Positions 3,162 through 5,519 of a DNA stretch of 32,779 bases are shown here, one piece after another. Every line of letters begins with the position of its first letter. The stretch's first letter is position 1. The translations under genes and the position numbers were made by a program. The DNA comes from a virus, in IMG/VR virus record IMGVR_UViG_3300047557_001104, positions 1 through 32,779 of that record; one strand, 5' to 3'. Below the pieces are notes generated by a model. It saw only the letters and a program-made list of their open reading frames with translations. It was not told where the DNA came from and did no database searches.

Positions 3162-3809
3162 TCAGGCAATTGCCTTGAGCTTGATGACCTTAGCCATGCT
3201 TTTGCCATGCGCCACATAGCCAATGACTGGCACGGATTTATCCCAACATGCGCGACAACCTGAGCATTTACCGCCATGCTCATAAGCTTTACAGACGGTG
3301 ATTGATGGATTGTCAAATGAGCTTGCAATCGTGCTCGAATGGGATTGATCGGCTAACACATCACCGGTGACACTATCTGAGCTTGCGCGTACTACGACGT
3401 TGGGGAGCTCTCGCATAAGCTCGATGATTGCTTGGAACTTTGCAAACTTATGCATACGTGTCGGCAGCCAATGTTTAACATGGGGAGTCGCTTGCATGAC
3501 CATGTAGATCTTTCGAGCTAGATTTATCGAATACATGTCACCGCTATCGAACCAACGAAAGTATCGATCATTGTCTAGTGATTGAATCATTTCGAACACC
3601 CAATCATCGCGCTGCCAGTCGTCGCGATTGAATTGTCGTGGAGCTTTCACGTTGGGATAACGATAGTTGCCTTGCGTTGCATAACATCCCTTACAAGCAT
3701 CAACAAGCTCCCCGTTTGATGCTATAGAACCAGGGCATGTCTCAAGAGCTTGCAAGCTCCAAGATCTGATCCCATCGAGCTTGCTAGTAATACTAAGTTT
3801 TACTTGCAT
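3162..3809 (-). CDS. gp88-family phage protein (215 aa)
   Basis: This resembles the phage 'gene product 88' family, whose function is unknown. Visible marks are C25, C39 and C42 (CKGCYA), a WFDSGDMYS segment near 86-94, VRASSDSVTGD near 140-150, and a C-terminal cluster C173, C182, C185, C188 (CSGCRACWDK). The CxxCY followed by a barrel-like strand pattern recalls radical-SAM-like phage proteins; that is inference, as the canonical CxxxCxxC is absent. I start it at 3809, with GGAG seven bases upstream. The open frame continues to 3926 but would collide with the 40-aa gene. It is the second gene in the minus-strand operon. Confidence 0.75.
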   Translation of the reverse strand: MQVKLSITSKLDGIRSWSLQALETCPGSIASNGELVDACKGCYATQGNYRYPNVKAPRQFNRDDWQRDDWVFEMIQSLDNDRYFRWFDSGDMYSINLARKIYMVMQATPHVKHWLPTRMHKFAKFQAIIELMRELPNVVVRASSDSVTGDVLADQSHSSTIASSFDNPSITVCKAYEHGGKCSGCRACWDKSVPVIGYVAHGKSMAKVIKLKAIA

Positions 3810-3856
3810 GATGTATCTCCAAAAGTTAAGAGGGGCGGTTAGCCCCATGTGGTTAG

Positions 3857-3979
3857 TTAGGCGATCAATCCGGTTAGCTTTGCACCGGCACATAGCACTA
3901 CCAGTGCAATGAAAGTAAGCCCGCACCCTGCCAATAGCGTTACAGCTAAGATGTTGCCGATCATGTTTAATGCTTTCAT
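3857..3979 (-). CDS. Small membrane protein or lipoprotein-like peptide (40 aa)
   Basis: The ORF begins MKALNMIGNILAVTLLAGCG and is hydrophobic almost throughout. LLAGC at 15-19 matches a lipobox, but the residues after the Cys are hydrophobic again (LTFIALVVLC), so a single transmembrane peptide is as likely as a lipoprotein. The ribosome site (GGAG, nine bases before ATG) is good. It is the first gene of the minus-strand operon after the control region. Role unknown; membrane-acting early peptide is inference. Confidence 0.5.
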   Translation of the reverse strand: MKALNMIGNILAVTLLAGCGLTFIALVVLCAGAKLTGLIA

Positions 3980-4286: not shown

Positions 4287-4524
4287 CAGGCATGTGCTCA
4301 AGGCCAATCGGGTATGACTTGGCCGCAACCAGTCGCGCAGATCGCTCGTTGTTGGCGCAAGCAAATGGGACGGGGGGTCGGGATTTAGGTGCACCACTAC
4401 GCTTCCCGCCCCAAAAGAAATTCAGTTTTTACCCTCCCCGCCCCAAGGAAAATCTGCTTTTCCTGCCTACCTTAAATATCTTTGTGTGTATGATGAGTAC
4501 ATCGACAACATGGAGATGTACGAG

Positions 4525-4737
4525 ATGTTTAAGTTAGAGAGAGGTTTAGATATACCTGATAGGAAGACAGGGCCTAAATACCCTTATGAACAGTTAGAAC
4601 TAGGAGATAGTTTCTATCTAGAGGGAGGTGATTTATCGAAGCTATGTAATGCTAACTATAGAGAATGGAGAAGAACAGGAAAGAAGTACACGGCAAGGAA
4701 GGTAGAGAATGGCGTAAGGGTGTGGAGGATTGAGTGA
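4525..4737 (+). CDS. Small phage protein of the YP..L.LGDSF...RVWR type (70 aa)
   Basis: Function unknown. KYPYEQLELGDSFYL and the C-terminal GVRVWRIE are hallmarks of a small phage and plasmid protein family with a mixed alpha/beta layout. I start at ATG 4525 because GGAG (4512-4515) stands nine bases upstream. A GTG at 4486 or ATG at 4510 would add 13 or 5 residues but have no good ribosome site. Its TGA is overlapped by the methyltransferase GTG and abuts the ATG of the overlapping ORF. A distant relative may be the minus-strand gene at 53-406. Confidence 0.75.
   Translation: MFKLERGLDIPDRKTGPKYPYEQLELGDSFYLEGGDLSKLCNANYREWRRTGKKYTARKVENGVRVWRIE
4724..4728 (+). promoter_or_regulatory. Shine-Dalgarno shared by two out-of-frame starts
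   Basis: GGAGG ends five bases before the GTG at 4734 (methyltransferase) and nine bases before the ATG at 4738 (overlapping ORF). Both spacings are functional in bacteria, so one ribosome site could feed two reading frames. Confidence 0.6.
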
Positions 4738-5519
4738 ATGAGTTGGCTCTTTTCGCGGGCGCTGGTGGAGGAATACTTGGAGGGAAGTTGCTTGGATGGC
4801 GAACCGTCTGTGCAGTCGAGTGGGAACCCTATGCCGCAAGCGTACTTGTGCAGCGACAAAATGATGGGATTCTCCCGCCTTTCCCGATTTGGGATGACGT
4901 TCAGACTTTTGACGGAAAGCCGTGGAGAGGCATTGTTGATGTCGTATCTGGAGGATTTCCCTGTCAGGACATCTCAGCCGCAGGAAAGGGTGCAGGAATT
5001 GATGGAGAGCGATCAGGTATGTGGCGAGAAATGGCAAGGATCATTTGCGAAGTACGACCGCGATACGCATTCATTGAGAACTCACCAATGCTCACTACTA
5101 GAGGACTTGACCGAGTCTTGTCAGACCTTGCCAGCATGGGGTTTGATGCGAGATGGGGAGTGTTGGGAGCAGCCGACGTTGGCGCTCCGCATCAGAGGGA
5201 CAGAATCTGGGTTGTGGCCAACGCCGCAATCAGCAGACGCAAAATCCACGATAGTTCAAAAGGGTCATCAAAAAAATTTGACTCACCAAGTGATGAAATG
5301 GCCTACTCCAACAGCGCACAACGCCAAGGAAACCAATTCACCGAGCGAAGCAAAGCGCAACGAACCAACGCTTGCAAGCCGAGTTGGTGGAACATTGAAC
5401 CCGACGTGGGTCGAGTGGCTGATGGGGTGGCCGCTAGAGTGGACAGACTTAAAGCCATTGGAAATGGACAAGTTCCAGCAGTGGCAGCAACAGCATGGAA
5501 GCTATTGAGTGAAGCATGA
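4734..5519 (+). CDS. DNA (cytosine-5-)-methyltransferase (261 aa)
   Basis: Transfers a methyl group from S-adenosylmethionine to C5 of cytosine in a DNA target. Motif I is LFAGAGGG (6-13), motif IV GGFPCQDIS (73-81) with catalytic Cys77, motif VI IENS (114-117), motif VIII QRDR (154-157), and motifs IX/X RVDRLKAIGNGQVP (235-248). The target-recognition part (about 165-225) is short; with 261 residues the enzyme is smaller than HhaI (327). It starts with GTG, chosen because no ATG precedes motif I in frame; the GTG overlaps the upstream TGA. It likely protects phage DNA from host restriction. Nearly the whole gene is also open in the +1 frame. Confidence 0.92.
   Translation: MNELALFAGAGGGILGGKLLGWRTVCAVEWEPYAASVLVQRQNDGILPPFPIWDDVQTFDGKPWRGIVDVVSGGFPCQDISAAGKGAGIDGERSGMWREMARIICEVRPRYAFIENSPMLTTRGLDRVLSDLASMGFDARWGVLGAADVGAPHQRDRIWVVANAAISRRKIHDSSKGSSKKFDSPSDEMAYSNSAQRQGNQFTERSKAQRTNACKPSWWNIEPDVGRVADGVAARVDRLKAIGNGQVPAVAATAWKLLSEA
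4738..5508 (+). CDS. Out-of-frame ORF inside the methyltransferase gene: LNPTWVEWLMGWP-type protein (256 aa)
   Basis: This ATG-started ORF lies in the +1 frame of the methyltransferase and covers nearly all of it without a stop. Its product begins MSWLFSRALVEEYLEG and contains FSRLSRFGMTF (45-55), two WPTP repeats (160-169, 188-198) and LNPTWVEWLMGWP (220-232) followed by EWTDLKPLE. I recognise this layout from annotated phage proteins of unknown role, some apparently not overlapping a methyltransferase gene; that is memory, not a search. Its ATG directly follows the upstream TGA, and the next gene's GTG directly follows its own TGA. Either it is a true overprinted gene or a widespread artefact of methyltransferase coding. 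Confidence 0.55.
   Translation: MSWLFSRALVEEYLEGSCLDGEPSVQSSGNPMPQAYLCSDKMMGFSRLSRFGMTFRLLTESRGEALLMSYLEDFPVRTSQPQERVQELMESDQVCGEKWQGSFAKYDRDTHSLRTHQCSLLEDLTESCQTLPAWGLMRDGECWEQPTLALRIRGTESGLWPTPQSADAKSTIVQKGHQKNLTHQVMKWPTPTAHNAKETNSPSEAKRNEPTLASRVGGTLNPTWVEWLMGWPLEWTDLKPLEMDKFQQWQQQHGSY

Follow-up and report, generated by a model that had tools for sequence, protein, structure and literature searches.

Nested reading frames in one stretch of phage DNA very likely encode the two halves of a heterodimeric C5-cytosine DNA methyltransferase

M.EcoHK31I, which belongs to an E. coli restriction-modification system, is a C5-methyltransferase made of two polypeptides (YGGCCR). Its small subunit, of 176 amino acids, is reportedly nested in an alternative frame of the large one. 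In the background section of a research paper, which summarises the work of Lee, Kam and Shaw (1995), motifs I–VIII and X of M.EcoHK31I are placed on the large polypeptide and motif IX alone on the small one, the predicted TRD is assigned to the large subunit, and the small subunit of M.AquI is given motifs IX and X (PMC3404938). No report of an overprinted phage C5-methyltransferase was found in the literature searched, and published descriptions of such an overlap may exist in other, mostly subscription, journals.

The DNA analysed here is the IMG/VR virus record IMGVR_UViG_3300047557_001104 (32,779 bases, referred to as the window over its whole length), and the overlap and the small ORF before it lie on its plus strand. 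Frame A (4734–5519) starts with GTG and encodes 261 amino acids carrying motifs I–VIII and X of a C5-cytosine DNA methyltransferase, as the putative catalytic (alpha) subunit. Frame B (4738–5508), in +1 relative to A, starts with ATG and encodes 256 amino acids, the putative small (beta) subunit, carrying the presumed recognition region and motif IX. Unlike the arrangement in M.EcoHK31I, the overlap takes up nearly the whole gene: 771 bases are common to both frames, B covers 98% of A, the two starts are 4 nt apart, and a single Shine–Dalgarno sequence, GGAGG (4724–4728), lies 5 nt from the GTG of A and 9 nt from the ATG of B. An earlier note on this DNA had proposed both the two full-length overlapping frames and the single Shine–Dalgarno; the ORFs and the site upstream of both starts were confirmed, with an openness far beyond chance.

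A site resembling a Shine–Dalgarno precedes the ATG of B in 58 of the 68 distinct loci selected with frame A, and the start of B, ATG-AGY-TGG, is kept in nearly all close loci. By contrast, 15 of the 68 have a non-start codon where A should start, four bases before this ATG. On the 5´ side of A, a small ORF of 83 amino acids (4486–4737) ends in a TGA that overlaps the GTG (GTGA), directly 5´ of the ATG of B, an arrangement that makes its translational coupling to the pair likely. Genes for the terminase, portal and major head protein are found downstream of the overlap. The pair also differs from M.EcoHK31I in adjoining a phage terminase, with no restriction enzyme recognised among its examined neighbours in the window. 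On the minus strand, a 254-aa ORF of unknown function (3162–3926) strongly matches phrog_1392 (PHROG, E=4.7e-28).

Frame A matches PF00145 in Pfam (E=6.7e-34) and the DNA methyltransferase family phrog_363 in PHROG (E=2e-72), and its residues 4–162 match M.HhaI (10mh_A, E=8.4e-14). From the sequence and the M.HhaI alignment, motif I (LFAGAGGG) was located at 4749–4772, motif IV with the catalytic Cys (GGFPCQ) at 4950–4967, motif VI (IENS) at 5073–5084 and motif VIII (QRDRIWVV) at 5193–5216. Motif X (IGNGQVPAVAATA), at 5457–5495, was assigned by its sequence and by the return of selection to frame A. A C5-cytosine methyltransferase is recognised in a single polypeptide by motifs I, IV (PCQ), VI (ENS), VIII and X, all of them in frame A. 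The earlier note had credited this frame with every motif of the family, but motif IX was not found in frame A of the window using the frame-B motif matrix (P=0.90) and lies in frame B instead.

The motif IX carried by frame B, LNPTWVEWLMGWPLEW, occupies the matching DNA position between the recognition region and motif X. The sequence LNPTWVEWLMGWPLEWTDL (5395–5451) is the best conserved stretch of the frame, and the spacing P-x6-M-G-aromatic-P is the same as in the motif IX of M.HhaI (KLHPRECARVMGYP). When whole proteins were scored with a matrix derived from 116 frame-B motifs, the true motif IX was the top position in M.HhaI (residue 273), M.HaeIII (residue 274) and four further single-chain enzymes, L308, L313, L166 and L170. 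Three of these top-ranked matches are individually weak against shuffled protein (P=0.13 for M.HaeIII and a marginal 0.05–0.06 for L166 and L170). The C-terminal parts of the M.HhaI and M.HaeIII sequences used in this test are identical to those in the PDB. The variable region of frame B (5215–5390), with WPTP repeats at 5215–5226 and 5299–5310, is presumed to be the target-recognition region, and over it frame A is the passenger. Along the DNA, the inventory and order of the motifs (I–VIII, recognition region, IX, X) equal those of M.HhaI and M.HaeIII; the window departs from these single-chain enzymes in giving the recognition region and motif IX a start of their own, in the +1 frame.

Residues 45–208 of frame B match phrog_1008 (PHROG, E=6.3e-24), and tblastn with frame B gave matches in 126 phage records, which bears out the recurring phage protein type that the earlier note had seen in it. 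The family phrog_1008 is named 'DNA methyltransferase'; it is the frame-B family, so that the name reflects annotation only and the profile represents the small, not the catalytic, subunit. No Pfam model matches frame B, C-terminal fragments by themselves do not match PF00145, and a frame-B profile gave no match among PDB sequences. AlphaFold2 modelling reached a pLDDT of 47 for frame B with 51 close homologues, and of 62 (pTM 0.36) for its core with 130 diverse homologues. The better model had no Foldseek match in the PDB, and comparison with BFVD gave weak superpositions (TM-score 0.21–0.25), some of them on annotated methyltransferases. A poor fold when modelled alone may be expected of an obligate subunit, yet it is no evidence for one.

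Frequent stops in close relatives, in which the earlier note saw a sign against a frame-B gene, are absent. In 74 distinct homologues gathered by frame A only, a choice hence neutral on B, frame B contains 2 stops, compared with 391 expected from permuting synonymous codons within frame A. Both are no more than 53 nt from the end of A, and frame B is fully open in 72 of the 74 homologues (0.12 expected). The +2 frame of the same loci shows no depletion, with 1203 stops against 953 expected, and neither do canonical single-chain controls (17 vs 15.4 and 22 vs 22.4 expected). Two controls came from five loci that match a frame-A stretch of L004 and are canonical methyltransferases. For the window alone, 0.06% of permutations lack any +1 stop, over a tested +1 frame that itself has two stops outside B. 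A depletion beyond codon permutation, as in a coding overlap, is also seen in two further sets, both fetched with B and so biased towards it. The 67 bacterial-genome loci hold 0 of 36 expected stops over motifs I–III, 0 of 136 over IV–VIII and 4 of 80 in the remainder; the corresponding values in 41 distant viral loci are 49 of 70, 0 of 148 and 37 of 92, with stops at both ends because B begins later there and ends just past motif IX.

The phase of the overlap makes codon position 3 of A position 2 of B, and position 1 of A position 3 of B. Among 56 disjoint close pairs (an all-pairs version was also run), changes pile up at A position 3 over motifs I–III (69%), IV–VIII (58%) and X (59%), whereas the recognition region (50%) and motif IX (57%) have them concentrated at B position 3. 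Counted as amino-acid changes, the ratio of A to B is 0.25 over motifs I–III, 0.35 over IV–VIII, 1.66 (1.47–1.93) over the recognition region, 2.67 (2.08–3.70) over motif IX and 0.39 over motif X. Therefore, constraint rests on A as far as motif VIII, then on B through motif IX, and on A again over motif X. This pattern recurs in the genome and distant viral sets, so that the three sets agree, and the controls behave. Furthermore, over motif IX (P223 to A241 of frame A), nine four-fold third positions of frame A are 99–100% fixed and one is 96% fixed, compared with 34–52% expected from codon use.

Purifying selection on B once A is accounted for, the check that the earlier note had proposed, was found in two parts of the frame, its recognition region and its motif IX. 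Frame B is a genuine reading frame under selection and no artefact of codon use. In its N-terminal half, purifying selection is undetectable at the amino-acid level: over motifs I–VIII, frame B accumulates 0.27–0.28 amino-acid changes per codon, compared with 0.29–0.30 in the non-coding +2 frame. Since this first half is stop-free yet hardly constrained, ribosomes would enter at the upstream ATG, with the sequence itself mattering little. Overprinting, also suggested in that note, is involved, but its direction was half right: B is constrained and A the passenger between motifs VIII and X, with the reverse over motifs I–VIII and X.

Judged by motif placement, the A/B pair has the division reported for M.EcoHK31I, with motifs I–VIII and X on the large subunit and motif IX on the small one. 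It differs in the recognition region, which codon-position data place in the small subunit here, whereas PMC3404938 has the TRD of M.EcoHK31I in the large subunit. The pair resembles M.AquI in that the division falls past motif VIII but before the enzyme ends, and in that the small subunit has motif IX together with some of the variable region. However, motif X lies in the small subunit of M.AquI and in the large one here, which sets the window apart from the AquI type.

Other architectures are found among the relatives. In L220, the A-type ORF stops soon after motif VIII, and PTP repeats, motif IX (LNPDWVEWLMGYP) and motif X (LKCLGNSIVPQ) follow one another in a single frame, that of an overlapping +1 ORF. 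Mycobacteriophage Blue7 (L312) is split in the same way, into the annotated genes gp92 and gp91, which have 155 nt in common. Relatives of Blue7 gp91 are present in thirteen viral contigs, twelve of which have the A-type/B-type split. The Blue7 pair and L220, with motifs IX and X together in the small subunit, are the M.AquI-like members. The recognition region must come from the B-type protein, because the alpha subunit of Blue7 stops just past motif VIII. In Gordonia phage Inspectinfecti (L310), gp5 is a single chain of 652 amino acids with motifs I–VIII, PTP repeats, a segment resembling motif IX, and motif X. The catalytic-domain tree places the Blue7-type genes and Inspectinfecti beside an overlap-type gene (98/98), and L220 beside two overlap-type genes (96/94). 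These groupings imply that the architectures interconverted at least twice, without a direction, as the root of the tree is unresolved.

An overlapping A homologue is present at every B locus (130 viral, of which 78 are close and 52 distant, and 80 from genomes), and the stand-alone B genes that the earlier note had asked about were not found among the roughly 210 frame-B loci scanned. The A/B arrangement is found in phages and in bacterial genomes of several phyla, the hosts of the genome loci including Acinetobacter, Pseudomonas, Pantoea, rhizobia, Akkermansia and Geothrix. A search with one canonical phage methyltransferase returned one relative only.

Several existing records contain pieces of this arrangement. 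In Pseudomonas phage VB_PaD_phPA-G (PP083311; L001 1501–2229), B alone is annotated, as hypothetical protein XAI65183, and the unannotated frame-A methyltransferase is 82% identical to that of the window over residues 22–163. In mycobacteriophage Llama (gp74/gp75; L005 1305–2064), one frame disruption relative to mycobacteriophage Spikelee (L311) breaks both frames at once, leaving halves that are annotated as two 'DNA methyltransferase' genes. Inspectinfecti gp6 (L310 1802–2257), annotated as an endonuclease, is a +1-frame ORF within the gene of the single-chain methyltransferase, and could be an inserted homing-type element. Frame-B homologues also lie under annotated cytosine methyltransferases in the Leptospira interrogans plasmids NZ_CP043879 and NZ_CP092671, and in NC_019972, an archaeal extrachromosomal element of Methanomethylovorans hollandica.

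Very likely (probability of about 0.88), the C5-cytosine DNA methyltransferase is a heterodimer whose two subunits are read from one DNA stretch in nested frames. Frame A would provide the catalytic subunit, with the SAM-binding and catalytic motifs I–VIII, an unconserved linker and motif X. Frame B, from its own ATG behind the common Shine–Dalgarno, would provide the small subunit, in which an N-terminal half that is merely stop-free in this clade would be followed by the WPTP-repeat region and motif IX. B is considered a subunit of the same enzyme since its conserved core consists of the recognition region and motif IX that are absent from A, and we infer that it is translated separately, assembles with A into a heterodimer and recognizes the DNA. 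The two would form the equivalent of one complete enzyme, B supplying what forms the small domain in M.HhaI. This enzyme would act on the DNA of the phage, perhaps also on that of the host, and methylate a specific site; its most likely role would be restriction evasion.

It could be argued instead that programmed +1 ribosomal frameshifting after motif VIII joins A and B into one long chain, given that the constraint switches frames exactly where such a shift would be needed and that Inspectinfecti gp5 offers a natural single-chain version. This is very unlikely, mainly because B retains a start codon and motif X lies once more in A. The conservation of motif X in A past motif IX would demand a second, compensating shift, the ATG of B is conserved and has a Shine–Dalgarno-like site, and the stop-free, hardly constrained stretch of B over motifs I–III, in the close and genome sets, fits only ribosome entry at the upstream ATG.

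An independent function of B, such as anti-restriction or methyltransferase regulation, with an overlap that is coincidental, is highly improbable. The conserved core of B is the very region missing from A, at the homologous position, which also tells against the regulatory or anti-defence role put forward in the earlier note; relatives carry this segment joined to motif X or to a complete enzyme, and stand-alone B genes are missing from the loci scanned. B is nevertheless a conserved separate ORF, and it stays intact beside a broken A at 2 of 80 A-selected loci, L068 (a nonsense codon in A) and L033 (A truncated before motif X), which reflect decay, error or a real B-only state. Barring sequence error or gene decay, these two loci would not favour a strictly obligate heterodimer.

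Finally, the view that frame B is an artefact, with its +1 frame held open by the conserved residues and codon use of A and its tblastn matches being shadows of A, an option the earlier note had left standing, is refuted by a roughly 200-fold depletion of stops when the A protein and its codon set are kept fixed, by the frozen A-synonymous sites over motif IX, and by codon-position evidence, in three data sets, that selection over the recognition region and motif IX acts on B rather than A. Some of the similarity to B is nonetheless such a shadow: the canonical L308 and L313 give B-profile matches over motifs VI–VIII (E about 3e-7) with their frame B closed, and the rate of change of B over motifs I–VIII is close to that of the +2 frame.

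Two subunits of one enzyme nested almost fully in one DNA stretch represent an extreme gene overlap. M.EcoHK31I provides the biochemical precedent; here the partition is seen in many phages, prophages and bacteria, supported by selection tests, and the intermediate architectures make the origin of the overlap traceable. Mosaic overlapping genes of this kind probably constitute a large unrecognised family of phage and bacterial methyltransferases, in which the functional frame switches twice, the missing half lies in an unannotated +1 frame, and small frame shifts allow interconversion with split and single-chain forms. Automatic annotation retains one frame, so that sequence records and PHROGs call either half 'DNA methyltransferase' and record part of the enzyme. 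Expressing frame A alone would probably yield an inactive protein, and, if A alone were considered, the specificity of the enzyme would be looked for in the wrong protein sequence.
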